A stretch of DNA of 64,000 bases from an uncultured Verrucomicrobiota bacterium (GTDB lineage Bacteria; Verrucomicrobiota; Verrucomicrobiia; Limisphaerales; UBA9464), in the NCBI GenBank assembly GCA_903907925.1, contig CAIVQB010000052.1:1-64000 (forward strand). The letters run 5' to 3'. Position numbers and translations under genes: made by a program. Under the pieces are notes generated by a model, which worked only from the letters and a program-made list of their open reading frames with translations, was not told where the DNA came from and made no database searches. Below are positions 53,828 to 64,000 of this stretch, one piece after another. Each line of letters starts with the position of its first letter. Within the stretch, counting starts at the first letter, position 1.

Positions 53828-55660
53828 TTATTGTCCGGCCTTCGGTGCTGCGGGAATGGTCTTCAACAGGTAGGCGCGACGTTGATCGGCGAAGGATTTG
53901 AGGCCGATCGTTCCGCCACCGCCGGGACCGAACCCGTTGCCCGGAATGTCCTCCAGCAACCCCTTCTGGAACGACGCATAGGATTCCAGCTTGCGGGTGT
54001 CGGCCTTAACGTCGGCATCGATCATCGTGTGCAGGCGGGTCGCCACCGGGCCGAGCTTGTTCCAATCGAGCCAGGTGTCGGCGATTTCACGTTCAAGGGC
54101 CAGGTAACGGGCCCGGAGCCTGGGCACGGCGAGCAACTTTGAGATCAACGGTTTCCCGGAATCCGCCGCGGCAAACAACGGATCCAACTCAACCCCGTTG
54201 ATGCTGTTGCCCCCGCCGGCCATGCCGCCCCGACCGCCGCCACCCGGACCACCCGGACCACCAGGACCACCAGGACCACCCGGTCCAAAGGGAGGCCGCT
54301 GTCCATCGGGTCCGCCCGGTTGACCGCCCTGCCCCGGCCCCCCATCAGGACCCGGAGGACCACCGGGTCCACCGCCAAAGCGTTGGCCTCCGCGTCCACC
54401 GGAACCACCCGGTCCGCCGCCAAATCCGGGACCGCCGGGCTTGCTGAAGTTCTCATTGGTATCGTGAGGGAGAATATGGAACCGGCCCGTCTCATCCTCG
54501 TAGATGTTGTAATCGCTGGTGCGGATCCAATACCCGTCGTTGTTGATCAGCGTGTTTTCCAACGCGAGAAACTTCAGGGCGCCGTCGACATCCAGGATCG
54601 GTTCGAGCGCCGCCTCCAGACGATCAGCCGGCGTTTCATTCAGAATCTTGCACAACCGCGCGAGATCGGCCCACGCCTTGGGTTCATCCTGGCTCTTGAT
54701 CTCATAGATCTTCTTGTACGCCGCCGCGTCTTCACCGAGGTAGGCGAGACTGCCGCGCCCTCCCGGACTGCCCGGAACCTTCCAACGCGCGCCCTTGGTG
54801 GTGCCGAACCATTCACGGACGAATTCCTTGTCGAATTGTTGGTCGTTGATGTAGACGCCCCAGCTCTCGCCATTGATCACCACCCGGACCAGACAGGTCT
54901 TGGGTGCCGGGATGTAGTTTCGGGCGACGACCGAATAGAGCACCGGACGCAAAAAGGTGGGATCCTCGTGTGAATTGAGCAGATTGAGGGTCTTGAATCC
55001 GCCGATGGTCTGATCCTTGTTGACCGCCGCGATCGCCAGGTTGAGCGAGCGTTTGTGAGTGGCGGGCACCATCATGTACGACGACATCCCGCGGAAATGA
55101 ACGCCGACATTCGTGTACACCTTGCCGTCGACCGTCAGCTTGGCCGGCAAATCCACGTCGGTCTTGTGAAACGCCTCGAGTTCTTTTTCCCAATCGCCGT
55201 TTTCAAACTCCAGGAACAGCGTCCGAACGGTGTCCAAATCGTAGAACGACTTGCCGACAATCGGGGTGACAGAATCCACCGAGACCGACGGTCCACGGGA
55301 CACCGGCTCCATCTCACCCCCCATCGGGCCGCCGCGTCCGCGGAATCCCCCGCCACCGCCGGGACGCGAGTTTTGCGCTTCCAACGCCGCCTTCCGCTCG
55401 GTCGCGTTCAACCATCCGTTGGTGTCGGTATCGAATTGTTTGAGCAGCTTGGTCTTCTGCTGCACGCCAAAGCCCGGGCCTCCGCGTCGACCTCCGCCGG
55501 GACCGCCTCCCGGTCCACCGCCAGGCCCGAATCCAGGCGGGCCGCCAAAGCCACCGCCCTGTGGAGGTTGATTGTCGGGGGGGGGATTTTGGGCCAGGGC
55601 GGACAGGGTGGTTGCCAGGCCGAGGATCGCAACAAAGCGACAGGTTGAGGACAGGTTCAT
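53828..55660 (-). CDS. exported CotH-kinase-like protein with collagen-like Gly/Pro inserts
   Basis: The 610-residue protein has a signal peptide (ILGLATTLSALAQ). A Gly/Pro-rich stretch follows, with an EF-hand-like loop (DTDTNGWLNATE) and a second Gly-rich run. The CotH kinase core then shows GVHFRGMSS, KRSLNLAIAAV, NLLNSHEDPTFLRP, GVYINDQQFDKEF, LENTLINNDGYWIRTSDYNIY and ILPHDTNENF (metal/catalytic region). A long GGPGGPGG-type insert interrupts the C-terminal third, before TWLDWNKLGPVATRL. CotH proteins phosphorylate spore coat proteins in Bacillus; here an extracellular or envelope kinase is implied. It overlaps no neighbour and sits 23 bases from metH's end on the opposite strand. Confidence 0.87.
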   Translation of the reverse strand: MNLSSTCRFVAILGLATTLSALAQNPPPDNQPPQGGGFGGPPGFGPGGGPGGGPGGGRRGGPGFGVQQKTKLLKQFDTDTNGWLNATERKAALEAQNSRPGGGGGFRGRGGPMGGEMEPVSRGPSVSVDSVTPIVGKSFYDLDTVRTLFLEFENGDWEKELEAFHKTDVDLPAKLTVDGKVYTNVGVHFRGMSSYMMVPATHKRSLNLAIAAVNKDQTIGGFKTLNLLNSHEDPTFLRPVLYSVVARNYIPAPKTCLVRVVINGESWGVYINDQQFDKEFVREWFGTTKGARWKVPGSPGGRGSLAYLGEDAAAYKKIYEIKSQDEPKAWADLARLCKILNETPADRLEAALEPILDVDGALKFLALENTLINNDGYWIRTSDYNIYEDETGRFHILPHDTNENFSKPGGPGFGGGPGGSGGRGGQRFGGGPGGPPGPDGGPGQGGQPGGPDGQRPPFGPGGPGGPGGPGGPGGGGRGGMAGGGNSINGVELDPLFAAADSGKPLISKLLAVPRLRARYLALEREIADTWLDWNKLGPVATRLHTMIDADVKADTRKLESYASFQKGLLEDIPGNGFGPGGGGTIGLKSFADQRRAYLLKTIPAAPKAGQ

Positions 55661-57230: not shown

Positions 57231-60200
57231 TCAATTCGCCATGCGAGTCGGACAACCGACGTAGACCTGGCCGGCCAGGAGGCGTTCCCGTTTCATCACC
57301 ACCGAATGCGGTTCCACCCGGGTGGCCACCCCGATCTCCGACCCGTAGAGCAACACCGCATTGTGGCCGATCGTCGCGTGAGCGCCGATCGAGACGCGAT
57401 CGATCTTCAGCACGCGATCCTCGAAGGTGTGGGCCTGAAACAGGCCATCGACCGTCGCGCCATCGCCGATCTGCAACATATCGGGATCCGGAATGTCCTG
57501 GGCGAAACCGGGTCCCAACACCACGCCGCGGCCGACCGACACACCCAGCAACCGGAGAAACCAGGCCTGGAGAAGCGTGCCATCGGTCGCACCAATCACA
57601 TCGCGGGCGAGCAGGCTCCAGGCGAGACAAACGAAATCCCAGCGACTGGCCCAGCACGACCACAGCGGATGCACGCCCGGACGCACCCGGCCGAGCAACA
57701 GCCACTTCAATGCGATCACAAACAGGCACGGTGCCAGCAGGGCCGCAGCGGTGGCCGCTGGAAGTTCGCACAATAGAAACTCCGCTGAAAGACGCCCGCC
57801 ACCCGAGACGGCCAGAAGACCGCACCACAGCGGAAACACGGCAGCGGGAACAATCGGGATCAGGAAGCGAAGCGCCTCCCAGAAGACCCGGTTGCCGCGT
57901 CGAATCCACGAGGGATGATGGGTGAGATGGGACTCCGCCTCGACAACCTCGCGCCGCGGCAGTTCAAAGGCGGGATGACCGAACCACGCACTTCCCGCAC
58001 GACAGACGGCCGCGTCTCCAATGGTAAGAACCCCGAGCAGAACACCCGCGGGCAACTCCTGCCCGGCGGGGATCACCACGCCATTGCCGAGGAATGTCCG
58101 CTCCGAAAGACGGATCGGGGCCAATGTCACCACGCCGCGGAGAATCCGTGGACCGCCCAGATACAATCCGTCCGCCAAAAAACTGCCCGACCCGATTTCC
58201 ACCAATTCAGGAACCACATCGATGATGGTGCTGATTTCGCAATCCGATCCCACCTTCATGCCCGCCCAGCGCAGCCACCACGGCCAGAACAGCGTCCCGT
58301 ACAACCAGTTTCCGGCCGATTGAACCAGACCGGTTTTCAACCAGACGCGAATGTATCCCCATCCATAGCGGCTGATCACGCCGGTTTGGATCCGACCCAA
58401 GGCCCGGCACAATCCCGCTTCCAACAGCAGGCTGATCGGCACCGGCGCGACGACACTGAACGCGGCCAACACCACTCCGAACAGCGTCACCGTGGGGGCT
58501 TCGATCCAGTTGGACGCCGCTTCGGTGTCCACACCCGCGACCTGCGCCAGTCCCAGCGCCACCAACTCCAAGGGCAACACCAACACCACGCCCACCAGAA
58601 ATCGCGCCACGATCAGCACCACGCCATGAGCCATTGGAGACATTGCGCGGTCCCCCGGTGGCAGCGGAACCGAATCGGGCGCACGACCCGCTGGCCGTGC
58701 CGGAATGCCATCCCAGCGTTCGCCGGCGGGGATCCGTCCACCGCGTCCCAGCGAGGACAGCGCCGTCAGGAATCCGTTGGCACCCACCCGGGTGCCGCCA
58801 CCCAGGCCCGACCGGATGTCGAGCGTGCAGCCGGATTCCAACACCACCGGTGCCATCACCAGATAACGCTGTTCCAACTCCACCAGACGCAGCGAGGCTT
58901 CCTGTCTGAGGGTTACGTCGTCGCCGATCTCCAGCAAATCCCAACCGCCCCGAAACACATCGGCCCCGCGGTGAATATGAACCCGTTGTCCGATCCGCGC
59001 TCCCAGGCAACGAAGGGTGACGTTCAAGAACTCGGTTCCCTCGATGAAGGTCCACGGAATCAACCGGGCCGCCTGATGCACCCACCAATGTCGGAGATAA
59101 AACGAACCCCAGACCGGTTCTCGTCCGGGTCGATAGGCACCAATCAAGAGGCGTTTCAAAACAACGGTTGCCGTCACCGTTGCGAGAGTGAACGCAATCA
59201 ACCCAAAAAATATCCCCACCGGAAACAGCAAAATCAACGCCACCCAGCCAAGGGAATGGGCCAGCCAGGGCATTCCTTGGAACACGGCGAAGTACGCCAG
59301 CGGTGCCCCGACGATTCCGATCGCCGCCAGCGAAACCGCCTGAAGGAGCGTGACCCAGAATCGCCGCGCCGCGGTGATCGAATCCACCGGCACCATTTGC
59401 GAGAGTGGTGTCGCCGGTCGTTTGGAGGCACCGGCGATCGCCCGCCAGGCGAGTTCGCGCACGGTTCGCCCTTCGTACAGGTCCCGAACTGTGACCGAGC
59501 ACGTGGTGGGATCGTCCCGCAGCCGCGACACCACCAGCGCCGCAGATAGGGAATCGCCGCCCAGATCGGAGAAAAAATCCTGCTCAACAGAAACCGCACC
59601 CGGCCGGTCCAGCACCCGCGCGAAGGCTTCGGCGATCCGCGTTTCAACCGGATCACGCGGAGCCACCGCAGGCTTCAGTTCCAGTTGATCCATCGCATCA
59701 GCCACGTCGCTTTCCGCAAGCGCCCGCCGGTTGATCTTCCCCGCCAGGTTCCGTGGCAATTCGGCGATGAAGGAGAAACGCGCGGGAACCATGTAAGCAG
59801 GCAGGACCAGCGACAACGCGCCACGAAGCACCGCCGTCGACGGTGGCGCATCGATCCGCGCCGGAACCACGAAAGCGGTCAGCACCTGGCGCGCCCCCTC
59901 CCCGGCGACGCAGCAGGCCGCCGCCTGAACACCGGGGCACTCGGACAGACGAGCCTCCACGGCCTCCAACTCGATCCGATAGCCGCGGATCTTCACCTGC
60001 GAATCGATCCGCCCATGACAGAACAACAGTCCGTCCGTACTGCGTGACACCAGATCACCGGTTCGATAGATCCGGCCCAACCGCGGGTGAATCGGGAACT
60101 TCTCCGCGGTTAGTTCCGGACGGTTGCGATAGCCGCGGGCAAGACCGATTCCACCCAGACACAATTCACCGAGGGTTCCTTCGGGCACTTCATCCATCGA

Positions 60201-61286
60201 CTCATCCAGAATCCATGCGACAAGCCCGGGAACCGGCACGCCGATGTTCACCGGCTGTCCGGAGAGGATCGGACCACGAACCGCGGTGACCGTGCATTCC
60301 GTCGGTCCGTATCCATTCACCAAGCGGCGACCACGGCTCCAGCGATCCGCCACATCGGACGGCAGGGCCTCCCCGCCCACATAAAGCAGTTTCAACTCCG
60401 GAAGCGCCTCCCAGGGGCGTTCGCATCCGGTGGTTCGCAACAGGGTCGGCGGCGGACACAGCACCGTGATCCGTTCCTGCTGCAACCAGGGAATCAGATC
60501 GGGTCCCAGGCGGGCCGCGTCATCGTCCATCACAACGGCGGTCGCCCCGGCGGCCCAGGCAAGCCAGAGCTCTTCCACCGACGAGTCATAGGCAGCGGAC
60601 GAGCCCTGCGCCACGCGATCGCCCGGGACCAGGCTGAACTCGGTTTGATCCGCCAGCACCAGATTCACGACCGAGCCATGGCTGATCATCACTCCCTTGG
60701 GGCGGCCGGTGGTGCCGGAGGTGTAGATCAAATAGGCGAGTGCATCGGGAGAGGGTTTGGATTCGAAATTGGAATCGGAGACGGAACAACCAGTGTGTTC
60801 GGGATTCGTTCCTTCGAGAACCGTTCCAGTGTCGACGCACCGCACGTTCGCCCAGCCGGCCTGTTCCGCGCGGCGAACTCCGTCCGCATCGGTCAGCAAC
60901 ACCCGGGCACCCGCGTCCCCAAGAATCTCCGCCACCTGGCCATCGGGGAATGCGGCGTCCAGACAGGCATACGCCGCCCCGGCCTTCAGCACGCCCAATT
61001 GCGCCACGTGCAGGAGAATCGAGTGACGCGGAATCAGCAACGCCACGACCGCGTCGGGAACCACCGAGGGTCGAAGATACTCGGCCAATCGATCCGACAA
61101 CCGATCCAAGTCCGCGTAACTGGCAACCCTCCGTTCTTCCCGATCCCGGCCCGGCGGAATGTCCACCGCGGGTTCCTCGGGCCGGCGGCGGGCGGAACGC
61201 CGGAAGACTTCATGCAACAGGCGCGGAGCACCGTCTTCCGCGGACCGTCCAGTCCCACGGCCGCGGTCATCCGCCGTCTGGTTCAT
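57231..61286 (-). CDS. NRPS-like protein: adenylation - carrier - multi-pass terminal domain (TIGR02353-like)
   Basis: The 1351-residue protein begins with an adenylation domain (about residues 30-545). Its motifs are A3 LIYTSGTTGRPKGVMISHG, A4 AYDSSVEELWLAW, A5 NGYGPTECT, A7 YRTGDLVSR and A10 NLAGKINRRAL. The carrier domain has the phosphopantetheine Ser579 in DLGGDSLSAAL. From about 660 to 1351 is a terminal domain with several membrane segments alternating with hexapeptide repeats (DIRSGLGGGTRVGANG; GDGATVDGLF; GAHATIGHNAVLLYG). This resembles the Pls/epsilon-poly-lysine-synthetase-type terminal region. No condensation or thioesterase domain. Its start overlaps the SET gene stop (ATGA). 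Confidence 0.88.
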   Translation of the reverse strand: MNQTADDRGRGTGRSAEDGAPRLLHEVFRRSARRRPEEPAVDIPPGRDREERRVASYADLDRLSDRLAEYLRPSVVPDAVVALLIPRHSILLHVAQLGVLKAGAAYACLDAAFPDGQVAEILGDAGARVLLTDADGVRRAEQAGWANVRCVDTGTVLEGTNPEHTGCSVSDSNFESKPSPDALAYLIYTSGTTGRPKGVMISHGSVVNLVLADQTEFSLVPGDRVAQGSSAAYDSSVEELWLAWAAGATAVVMDDDAARLGPDLIPWLQQERITVLCPPPTLLRTTGCERPWEALPELKLLYVGGEALPSDVADRWSRGRRLVNGYGPTECTVTAVRGPILSGQPVNIGVPVPGLVAWILDESMDEVPEGTLGELCLGGIGLARGYRNRPELTAEKFPIHPRLGRIYRTGDLVSRSTDGLLFCHGRIDSQVKIRGYRIELEAVEARLSECPGVQAAACCVAGEGARQVLTAFVVPARIDAPPSTAVLRGALSLVLPAYMVPARFSFIAELPRNLAGKINRRALAESDVADAMDQLELKPAVAPRDPVETRIAEAFARVLDRPGAVSVEQDFFSDLGGDSLSAALVVSRLRDDPTTCSVTVRDLYEGRTVRELAWRAIAGASKRPATPLSQMVPVDSITAARRFWVTLLQAVSLAAIGIVGAPLAYFAVFQGMPWLAHSLGWVALILLFPVGIFFGLIAFTLATVTATVVLKRLLIGAYRPGREPVWGSFYLRHWWVHQAARLIPWTFIEGTEFLNVTLRCLGARIGQRVHIHRGADVFRGGWDLLEIGDDVTLRQEASLRLVELEQRYLVMAPVVLESGCTLDIRSGLGGGTRVGANGFLTALSSLGRGGRIPAGERWDGIPARPAGRAPDSVPLPPGDRAMSPMAHGVVLIVARFLVGVVLVLPLELVALGLAQVAGVDTEAASNWIEAPTVTLFGVVLAAFSVVAPVPISLLLEAGLCRALGRIQTGVISRYGWGYIRVWLKTGLVQSAGNWLYGTLFWPWWLRWAGMKVGSDCEISTIIDVVPELVEIGSGSFLADGLYLGGPRILRGVVTLAPIRLSERTFLGNGVVIPAGQELPAGVLLGVLTIGDAAVCRAGSAWFGHPAFELPRREVVEAESHLTHHPSWIRRGNRVFWEALRFLIPIVPAAVFPLWCGLLAVSGGGRLSAEFLLCELPAATAAALLAPCLFVIALKWLLLGRVRPGVHPLWSCWASRWDFVCLAWSLLARDVIGATDGTLLQAWFLRLLGVSVGRGVVLGPGFAQDIPDPDMLQIGDGATVDGLFQAHTFEDRVLKIDRVSIGAHATIGHNAVLLYGSEIGVATRVEPHSVVMKRERLLAGQVYVGCPTRMAN

Positions 61287-61825
61287 GCCGGCGCCGCGGA
61301 CCGGTCGATGCGTTCAATCTTGCGAAGAAGATACGGCGCCAACAAGCGGCGCAGGCGATCCCGGTGCGACGGATCCAGATGAACGAATCCACCCACCCAG
61401 CCGCGGCAGGCGGACGTACCACAGCGGCAGGAGAACGGCTCGGCCATTTCGAACTCGGTGGTGTCGTAATCGAAGGTGATCTCGTCGCCGGGAAGAATGG
61501 GGCGCAGCGCCCGAACTTCGCGGCCGACGATCCGGACACTCGGCTCGCAGCTGTGATTCATGAAGCGCCACGGATGCCAGAGGATGATCTCGGCCTCGGA
61601 GGCGCCGTTCGTGAGATCCACATGGCCCGCCTCGTCCACCTGAACTGAAAAACGGGACGGCACCTCTACCAGCGCCCCCTCAATTCGAAAGACGAGTTCT
61701 CCGGTTCGGATCGGTACGGCTGCCAGGACTGAGAATTCACCGACGATCTGGGCGACTCCGACACGACCTCCCTGTGCGAGCTGGATCGATGGCGTTGGTT
61801 CAATGGAATTCAACATGACGGGCAT
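61283..61825 (-). CDS. SET-domain protein, coupled to the NRPS-like gene
   Basis: The C-terminal part has a SET signature: RFMNHSCEPSVRIVGREVRAL, GDEITFDYDTTE and post-SET CRCGTSACRGWVGGF, with Asn-His-Ser-Cys and the SAM/Tyr regions. SET enzymes transfer methyl groups from SAM to lysine side chains. The start is uncertain. ATG 61825 follows AGGA four bases upstream; the frame is open as far as GTG 61921. Its stop overlaps the NRPS-like start by four bases (ATGA), so the proteins are made together and may act in one pathway. Confidence 0.83.
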   Translation of the reverse strand: MPVMLNSIEPTPSIQLAQGGRVGVAQIVGEFSVLAAVPIRTGELVFRIEGALVEVPSRFSVQVDEAGHVDLTNGASEAEIILWHPWRFMNHSCEPSVRIVGREVRALRPILPGDEITFDYDTTEFEMAEPFSCRCGTSACRGWVGGFVHLDPSHRDRLRRLLAPYLLRKIERIDRSAAPA

Positions 61826-61921
61826 GGGTTCCTGCATCTGTTCACGTCGCGATGGCATCACGACATTCCAAAACCCTTTTCGAAACCCGCGCCCGCGGCA
61901 TTCAATCTCAACGCGCACCAC

Positions 61922-62278: not shown

Positions 62279-64000
62279 CTACGGCTCCTTTTGAATCATT
62301 TCGGCCAGGGTTGCAGTCACCGGATGCGCCACAGATTCCCTTGCCGCTGCGGCGTAGCGCGGATCGGTGAGTGTTCTGAGGAAGGCCACCAACGCCCGTT
62401 GATCGTCAGCCGACAATTGAAGTCCGCCCTCGGGATGTCGTGCCAGGTTCGGATCCAGGGTCGGACTCGCGTGAACGCCGCTGCTGTAGTGGGCCACCGC
62501 CTGTTCCAGCGTTTGGAACCGGCCGTCGTGCATGTACGGACCGGTGACGGCAACGTTCCGAAGCGACGGGGTCTTGAACTTGAGGCGATCCGACGCGCGG
62601 CCGGTGACCGCTGCGCGTCCCGCGTCGTCGGAACCCGTGACTCCATCGAGACCGTTGTTGTGGAATTGGAAGTCGGTGAACAGCGCCCCGCCGTGGCAAT
62701 GGAAGCAGTCGGCACCGAACTGCCCGCGCCGCGGATCCCGTTCGGTGTTGAATAGTTCGAATCCCCGTTGTTCCTCCGCGGTGAACTGCGCGGTTCCGTT
62801 CATCACCGCGTCGAATCGCGACCCATACGACACCTGGGTCAGTAAAAACTGCTCCAATGCCCGCGCCATCCGGTCGGCGGTAATTCCCCCCGGCCCGAAA
62901 GCCCGCTCAAACGCCTCCGAATAACCTGACGCCGCCAGGTTCTCCACGACCGCGGGGAGTGCCGCATTCATCTCTTCGGGATTCTGAATGGGCCGCAACA
63001 CTTGTTCGCGGAGAGAGGATGCCCGGCCGTCCCAAAAGAACTCCGAACTCCAAGCCAGATTCACCAACGCCATCGCATTGCGGGTTCCGTTCCGACCTTC
63101 AGCACCCACGCTGACCGGTCGGCCGGAGTCCGCAAAACCCGAGTCGCTCTGATGACATCCGGCACACGATTGACGGTTGTTTCCCGAAAGACGGGGTTCG
63201 TCGAACAAACGTCGCCCCAGGGCCACGCCTTCCTCAGTGAGCGGATTGTCCCGAGGCAACTTCGGTTGCGGAAAGAGTCCCGACATCCGGAACCGAAACG
63301 GCGCGGCCGTGGCCGCCACCTCCACCGTCAGTTTCTTGGAACCGGGCTTTCCAGAAACCTGCGCCACCGGTGCTCGCTCGGGCGACCGATCCCGTGTGAT
63401 GGCCTCAACGATCGCTCTACCAAGTTGTTGAGCGACGACATCGCCAGCCCGCGAATGCGTCGAGGCGGTTTCTTCCGAAAGAGTGATCCCCGAAGATTCC
63501 GCCCAGCATCGATCCAACGCGAACCGCAATCGCACTGCCGCATCCGCACGGAAATCGAACTCGCCGCCCAAACGGACATTCATCTGCATCGCATCCGTTG
63601 CCAAGTGATGTGAAAACCCCCGTCGCCGTCCATCAGGCCCGGTCCATGCCCCTTCCAACGCCATAAACACATAACCTCCCTGCCAGTTCCAATGCAGTCC
63701 GTTCACCAGTGGATGCAGCGGATCACCGGGTGCCACGGAAGCCGGATTGAGGTGATTCAACTCCGTTGGCAGACCGATCCGAAATCGCAATCCGGTGTAC
63801 ATCCCGGTCGGCACCGACTTCAGTTCGAATGCGGTCCGACCCGAGGTCGCACTCACAAAGGCCGTTTGACGTCCAAGCGAGTGTTCAACGCCACCGGAGT
63901 CGATCAGAACAAAGTCCGAGAGCAGGTACTCCAGGCGGCTGACGGACACGCGCTGGGTCGGGGAAAGGCTCCATTCGGCGGCGGACCCGTCCCAGGAACG
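62279..64000 (-). CDS. MbnP-like domain fused to diheme MbnH/MauG-type peroxidase, partial at right edge
   Basis: The frame continues to the window edge (through RSWDGSAAEWSLSPTQRVSVSR), so the N-terminus is missing; an internal GTG at 63949 is not the start. The visible N-terminal about 250 residues match MbnP: SRLEYLLSDFVL, YTGLRFRIGLP and VNGLHWNWQGGYVFMALEG with conserved Trp. The C-terminal half is a cytochrome c peroxidase-like domain with two heme sites, CAGCH and CFHCH, and FKTPSLRNVAVTGPYMHDGRF. In methanotrophs MbnH oxidises a Trp of MbnP to kynurenine for copper binding. Here both occur in one chain. Confidence 0.87.
   Translation of the reverse strand, partial: RSWDGSAAEWSLSPTQRVSVSRLEYLLSDFVLIDSGGVEHSLGRQTAFVSATSGRTAFELKSVPTGMYTGLRFRIGLPTELNHLNPASVAPGDPLHPLVNGLHWNWQGGYVFMALEGAWTGPDGRRRGFSHHLATDAMQMNVRLGGEFDFRADAAVRLRFALDRCWAESSGITLSEETASTHSRAGDVVAQQLGRAIVEAITRDRSPERAPVAQVSGKPGSKKLTVEVAATAAPFRFRMSGLFPQPKLPRDNPLTEEGVALGRRLFDEPRLSGNNRQSCAGCHQSDSGFADSGRPVSVGAEGRNGTRNAMALVNLAWSSEFFWDGRASSLREQVLRPIQNPEEMNAALPAVVENLAASGYSEAFERAFGPGGITADRMARALEQFLLTQVSYGSRFDAVMNGTAQFTAEEQRGFELFNTERDPRRGQFGADCFHCHGGALFTDFQFHNNGLDGVTGSDDAGRAAVTGRASDRLKFKTPSLRNVAVTGPYMHDGRFQTLEQAVAHYSSGVHASPTLDPNLARHPEGGLQLSADDQRALVAFLRTLTDPRYAAAARESVAHPVTATLAEMIQKEP

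Follow-up and report, generated by a model that had tools for sequence, protein, structure and literature searches.

Recurrent pairing of a BurB-related SET-domain gene with a distinct clade of Pls/PosA-type synthetases

The products of Pls/PosA-type synthetases are ε-poly-L-lysine, δ-poly-L-ornithine, and poly-Dap/Dab. The enzymes, of about 1350 amino acids, consist of an adenylation (A) domain, a carrier (T) domain, and a terminal domain in that order, with Asp235 and Glu239 in the A domain, six transmembrane (TM) segments in three pairs, three β-helices, and no C or TE domain (PMC10522769). The A domain of the Bdellovibrionales CHPA synthetase OFZ39577.1 (Bdello_A) was assayed and showed a modest preference for L-Arg, leaving four diamino acids unused, and a larger analogue was suggested as its true substrate (PMC10522769). 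Among SET-domain proteins, BurB transfers a methyl group to the sulfur of free methionine and feeds a dedicated sulfonium-acid A domain (PMC12542666, PMC7496086). In a literature search that mostly did not extend to subscription journals, BurB and its Streptomyces counterpart made up the only type of SET-domain natural-product enzyme found, and no paper on a SET gene paired with a Pls-type synthetase gene was found. Here we describe such a pair in the window, a stretch of 64,000 nucleotides from an uncultured Verrucomicrobiota bacterium, and compare it with these systems.

The gene pair and the architecture of its synthetase

The features of the locus are collected in Table 1. The TGA of the SET gene occupies positions 61283-61285 and the ATG of the synthetase gene positions 61286-61284, both on the reverse strand, and the four bases ATGA are common to the stop of the one and the start of the other. 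The translational overlap claimed in a sequence-only reading of this DNA is therefore present. The start of the SET gene is uncertain, with ATG options at 61816, 61825, and 61837, and a GTG option at 61921 at the farthest end of the open frame. By eye, the gene 5' of the pair (62279-63949, reverse strand) resembles a cytochrome-c-peroxidase/MbnH-like gene, which is absent from the other loci, and a reverse-strand gene at 53828-55660 encodes a CotH-kinase-like protein with long Gly/Pro-rich stretches.

Table 1. Features of the SET-synthetase locus, in window coordinates
Feature	Position	Strand	Basis
SET-domain methyltransferase gene, BurB-related subfamily (shortest likely form)	61283..61816	-	Pfam SET, 48-member subfamily, model
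SET domain core, P0002 residues 64-152, NHSC and F-D-Y motifs	61466..61732	-	PF00856, subfamily conservation
Post-SET cysteine cluster C-R-C-G...C, P0002 residues 165-172	61406..61429	-	47-48/48 subfamily members
ATGA overlap, SET stop/synthetase start	61283..61286	-	Sequence; recurs in other paired loci
Pls/PosA-type A-T-terminal-domain synthetase P0001, 1351 aa	57231..61286	-	ORF, Pfam, TIGR02353
Adenylation domain, residues 28-517, code DSECYGGVTK	59736..61205	-	Pfam and code alignment
Specificity loop AYDSSVEELW; code positions 235, 236, 239 = D, S, E	60564..60593	-	Alignment
Carrier (T) domain, GGDSL phosphopantetheine motif	59448..59639	-	PF00550, 44 bits; sequence
Membrane terminal domain, three repeats of TM-helix pair and left-handed β-helix	57249..59360	-	TIGR02353, hydropathy, AlphaFold, weak Foldseek

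Pfam assigned residues 28-386 of the synthetase to AMP-binding, 443-517 to AMP-binding_C, and 550-613 to PP-binding, with a weak hexapeptide match at residues 1298-1330. No C or TE domain was found by Pfam in its 1351 residues, which bears out the architecture first read from the letters. Residues 661-1346 matched the terminal domain of TIGR02353 ('Pls/PosA family NRPS') with 382 bits (E 4e-114). Hydropathy analysis revealed six hydrophobic segments that form three pairs (643-711, 882-963, and 1138-1201), and in the AlphaFold model of the terminal region (pLDDT 86) a helix pair plus a β-helix is repeated three times. These segments and this model agree with the layout modelled for the terminal region of PosA (PMC10522769). 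The TIGR02353 match, the TM pairs, and the β-helices uphold the kinship with ε-poly-lysine synthetase that the sequence-only reading had proposed. Foldseek returned weak matches of the terminal-domain model to hexapeptide acyltransferases, and the search by sequence for solved relatives of this domain gave only gamma-carbonic-anhydrase hexapeptide matches (E 0.02).

The NCBI cut-off for TIGR02353 is 423 bits, and three members of the clade to which the synthetase belongs did not reach it (382, 379, and 356 bits). The SET-linked synthetase is predicted to work like a Pls enzyme, yet it falls outside the curated TIGR02353 equivalog. Because the cut-off misses the tested members (356-382 versus 423 bits), the clade stayed hidden in public annotation, and a copy on a Streptomyces plasmid consequently bears no annotation beyond 'amino acid adenylation domain-containing protein'.

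Recurrence of the pair and co-occurrence of the separate genes

Among verrucomicrobial relatives, SET proteins of the subfamily (E < 1e-40) were found in 9 of 58 genomes, and the same nine carry a synthetase more than 50% identical to that of the window. The SET gene lies directly before the synthetase gene in all nine of the relatives having either gene. A wider scan, in which the SET alignment was compared with named genomes, one per species, yielded 46 loci of the SET subfamily, several of them from the same verrucomicrobial genomes under public names. At 30 of these 46 loci the synthetase gene directly follows the SET gene on the same strand, and an exact 4-base overlap, ATGA or GTGA, is present in 14 of the 30. 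The paired loci span Verrucomicrobiota, Planctomycetota, Armatimonadota, Actinomycetota (Lentzea, Kutzneria, Amycolatopsis, Kibdelosporangium, Actinocrispum, Planosporangium, a Pseudonocardia MAG, and Streptomyces nanshensis), and one gammaproteobacterial MAG, which may be misbinned, its SET grouping with those of Verrucomicrobiota in the tree. The divergence of the SET proteins is correlated with that of the synthetases (Mantel r 0.76, 0/2000 permutations). The sequence-only reading had looked to recurrence across genera for support, and the pair recurs across phyla as well. By comparison, no SET of this subfamily was present within 1.5 kb at any of the 29 ordinary Streptomyces Pls loci.

No third gene common to the loci was found in their neighbourhoods. 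The neighbouring regulators vary by lineage, being of the PucR type in Lentzea and Streptomyces, of the MocR type in Kutzneria, histidine-kinase-like in Planctomycetota, and KdpDE-like pairs in Gemmatimonadota. Several MAGs titled 'Akkermansia muciniphila' (L074, L075, L079, and L118) cluster with other Verrucomicrobiota; three of them match genomes of the window's own family, and their names look wrong.

In Streptomyces, Gemmatimonadota, and Acidobacteriota the two genes are often both present but at a distance from each other. Where the SET gene is unpaired, 7 of 16 such genomes carry a synthetase of more than 50% identity elsewhere. In S. melanogenes the genes lie on one contig about 14 kb apart, and on Streptomyces plasmids their distance is about 10-14 kb. 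This SET (50% identity) was found in four of 72,556 plasmids, close relatives rather than four independent cases, and the same four are the only plasmids with a synthetase of more than 50% identity. A SET of the Indioceanicola plasmid was rejected as a further case, since the protein is of another SET kind and its gene has no synthetase gene as a neighbour. Downstream of the Streptomyces synthetase gene, between it and the SET gene, are several paralogous genes of ~455 amino acids, whose products have the look of an N-terminal helix-turn-helix and no Pfam match. They were seen on the Streptomyces plasmids (L126, 16128-22148, and L127) and in S. melanogenes (L199-L200).

Among 200 Gemmatimonadota genomes, both genes were present in 5, the synthetase only in 1, the SET only in 9, and neither in 185. 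The SET thus occurs in 5 of 6 genomes with the synthetase and in 9 of the 194 remaining ones (Fisher p 4.6e-6, uncorrected for phylogeny). That 9 of the 14 SET-bearing genomes have no synthetase points either to a use of the SET by itself in these bacteria or to synthetase genes that escaped detection because the MAGs are incomplete. The MAGs G639 and G788 carry the synthetase without this SET; their divergent SETs were considered as the missing partner and rejected, since these belong to the generic SETs. The linkage of SET with synthetase is thus a matter of direct observation, and the two are almost certainly linked in function; the chemistry discussed below is what we infer.

The adenylation code and the kinship of the SET protein

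The ten code residues were taken from one alignment by GrsA positions. In the loop AYDSSVEELW, positions 235, 236, and 239 are D, S, and E, so that the Asp235 and Glu239 equivalents are retained, as had been noticed by hand. The code DSECYGGVTK was found in all 44 complete synthetases of the clade, and one truncated synthetase agrees with it at the readable positions. In the same alignment, control enzymes gave DAESIGTVVK in 16 Streptomyces (Lys type), DFE... in 13 Streptomyces Pls (Dap/Dab type), and DMEHNGTVSK at one control locus (L161), identical to PosA (Orn). DSECYGGVTK differs from the Lys code at 5 of 10 positions and from the Orn code at 5 of 10, whereas its ten residues are identical to those of Bdello_A, which rejects diamino acids. 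The Lys/Orn-like code suggested by the sequence-only reading therefore did not hold, and a Lys, Orn, Dab, or Dap code for the clade was rejected by the alignment with the control enzymes.

Identity is 43-98% within the clade and 28-42% to other Pls enzymes. The SET-linked synthetases thus differ from Pls/PosA enzymes in being a separate clade with its own code, a SET partner, and TIGR02353 scores below the cut-off. The clade is discrete, and the association with the SET is therefore ancient and maintained, with a single origin and not many. The change of the code is tied to the SET partner, which argues that the substrate of the A domain is itself unusual; very probably it is a non-standard one.

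The SET protein of the window matched PF00856 with 39 bits (residues 64-152). The SET fold, the H-x-C motif, the catalytic Tyr, and the post-SET cysteines are all present. Across the 48 SETs of the subfamily, Q94, H100, H123, C125, F150, Y152, T155, E156, P162, F163, C165, and C167 (P0002 numbering) are invariant, and W118 is nearly so. From SET domains generally, we take the post-SET cysteine cluster and the NHSC cysteine to be a probable zinc site. In lysine methyltransferases, Phe at the place that Phe150 occupies here, the Phe/Tyr switch, favours di- and trimethylation.

Among solved structures, BurB gave the best profile match (59 against 46 bits). The SET model (pLDDT 94) has BurB as its best PDB match, with Z 13.7 and an rmsd of 3.4 over 126 residues, compared with Z 11.6 for ASH1L. 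The residues Q94, H100, T155, E156, and F163 are common to the subfamily and BurB and are absent from the generic SETs of related genomes. The likeness thus extends over the fold, the Q, H, and [ST]TE motifs, and the post-SET cysteines. The placement of BurB in the SET tree, a long branch from a fragment only, was left aside. In that tree the SET partner is separated from the ordinary SET proteins of its genome, and its being one of them was rejected. The genome of the window also has two tandem generic SET genes (L001 and L002; G000:C90, 54982-55815), unrelated to the subfamily.

The two SET proteins are about 26% identical. In the sequence alignment, Trp118 is at the position of BurB Ser88 and Phe150 at that of Met122; of the two BurB residues reported to lie between methionine and SAM, Tyr124 is kept and Ser88 gives way to a near-invariant Trp. 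With Ser88 replaced by Trp and Met122 by Phe, the substrate need not be methionine. The general statement of the sequence-only reading that SET enzymes methylate Lys was too narrow, the nearest characterised SET being an S-methyltransferase of free methionine. By analogy with BurB, the SET enzyme of the pair probably acts on a free amino acid as well.

The systems also differ in what follows. BurB serves an NRPS-PKS via DMSP, with BurI, BurD, and BurE, and acts upstream of an onium-specific A domain (PMC12542666, PMC7496086). The DMSP-activating A domain of BurA resembles that proposed here in being dedicated to a SET-derived onium compound (PMC7496086). It is without Asp235, its substrate having no α-amine, whereas the SET-linked synthetase keeps Asp235, and an α-amino acid is therefore expected as the substrate.

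Proposed pathway and alternative readings

We propose that the pair is a biosynthetic unit, built on a Pls/PosA-type synthetase clade not recognised before, in which the SET enzyme supplies a methylated onium amino acid; we regard the chances of this reading as even. The predicted substrate, step order, and product are as follows. The BurB-like SET enzyme would use SAM on a free amino acid and give a methylated amino acid that is bulky or carries a permanent charge, with S-methylmethionine or N-ε-methylated lysine as the leading candidates. The A domain would pick this onium amino acid, Asp235 holding the α-amine and Glu239 the cation, and Gly322 and Tyr299, which replace the Thr and the Ile/Asn of Lys/Orn enzymes, would make room, with Tyr299 as a possible cation-π partner. 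After loading on the T domain, the units would be joined to each other or to an acceptor by the membrane domain with its three β-helices. The loci share no further gene, so that a single methylation step should separate the precursor from a common amino acid or metabolite. A published precedent for a SET enzyme that provides an onium compound for a dedicated A domain is BurB, whose partner A domain is specific for sulfonium compounds.

S-methylmethionine and trimethyllysine are unable to form side-chain isopeptides, and the linkage must therefore differ from that of the Pls products: the bond may be through the α-amine, there may be another acceptor, or the substrate may be monomethyl-lysine. 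Tentatively, six or more phyla may use the two-gene system to make polymers or conjugates whose building blocks are methylated amino acids with a permanent charge, namely poly-S-methylmethionine or poly-di-/trimethyllysine joined through the α-amine, a product that we consider possible and not likely.

The assay of the identical code suggests another reading, rather unlikely in our judgement, in which the substrate of the A domain is arginine or one of its analogues, and methylation by the SET enzyme comes afterwards, as a tailoring of the product or the carrier-bound residue. L-Arg was the best substrate in the sole assay of this code, but with an activity termed modest, and the true substrate was suspected to be a larger analogue (PMC10522769). 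The coupling of the two genes is consistent with tailoring, and so is the proximity of argJ to the synthetase in some Gemmatimonadota, though the latter is confined to that group and may be fortuitous; BurB, which among characterised proteins is nearest to the SET, has a free amino acid as its substrate. It is distinctly improbable that the SET enzyme makes no substrate and instead methylates protein lysine, in the synthetase itself or a regulator, as a means of control. The NHSC motif, the catalytic Tyr, the Phe switch, and the post-SET cysteines are as in histone-lysine methyltransferases, and the SET stands alone in several Gemmatimonadota; however, profile, fold, and diagnostic residues all place the SET nearer to BurB than to any histone enzyme, and regulation leaves the strictly linked change of the code unexplained.

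Very unlikely, too, is the methylated poly-lysine envisaged in the sequence-only reading, with ordinary Lys or Orn activated and lysine methylated by the SET enzyme before or after polymerisation. The Pls-type terminal domain would suit it, as would Asp235 and Glu239, which every cationic polyamino-acid synthetase has, but the code departs by half of its residues from both the Lys and the Orn enzymes and matches in full the code of an enzyme that rejects diamino acids (PMC10522769). That the genes are chance neighbours without functional relation is ruled out by the distribution of the pair: chance has only G639, G788, and the Gemmatimonadota with the SET alone in its favour, and against it stand the coupled order kept across phyla, the co-occurrence in trans, and the 29 ordinary Pls loci without this SET.

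Next to the one type found in the literature search, the SET partner is a second, widespread type of SET-domain natural-product enzyme. If the proposed onium pathway holds, the unit would give a new class of cationic polyamino acids or onium conjugates. The SET partner narrows the substrate of the synthetase to a short candidate list. The pair occurs in culturable Lentzea, Kutzneria, Amycolatopsis, and Streptomyces.

In three Gemmatimonadota loci (L190, L191, and L194) the synthetase gene is divergent from genes for a KdpD/KdpE-like two-component pair and for K+ or amino-acid permeases, and the argJ gene is near the synthetase gene in four (L190, L192, L193, and L194). A link of the Gemmatimonadota synthetase with osmotic stress or arginine is possible.
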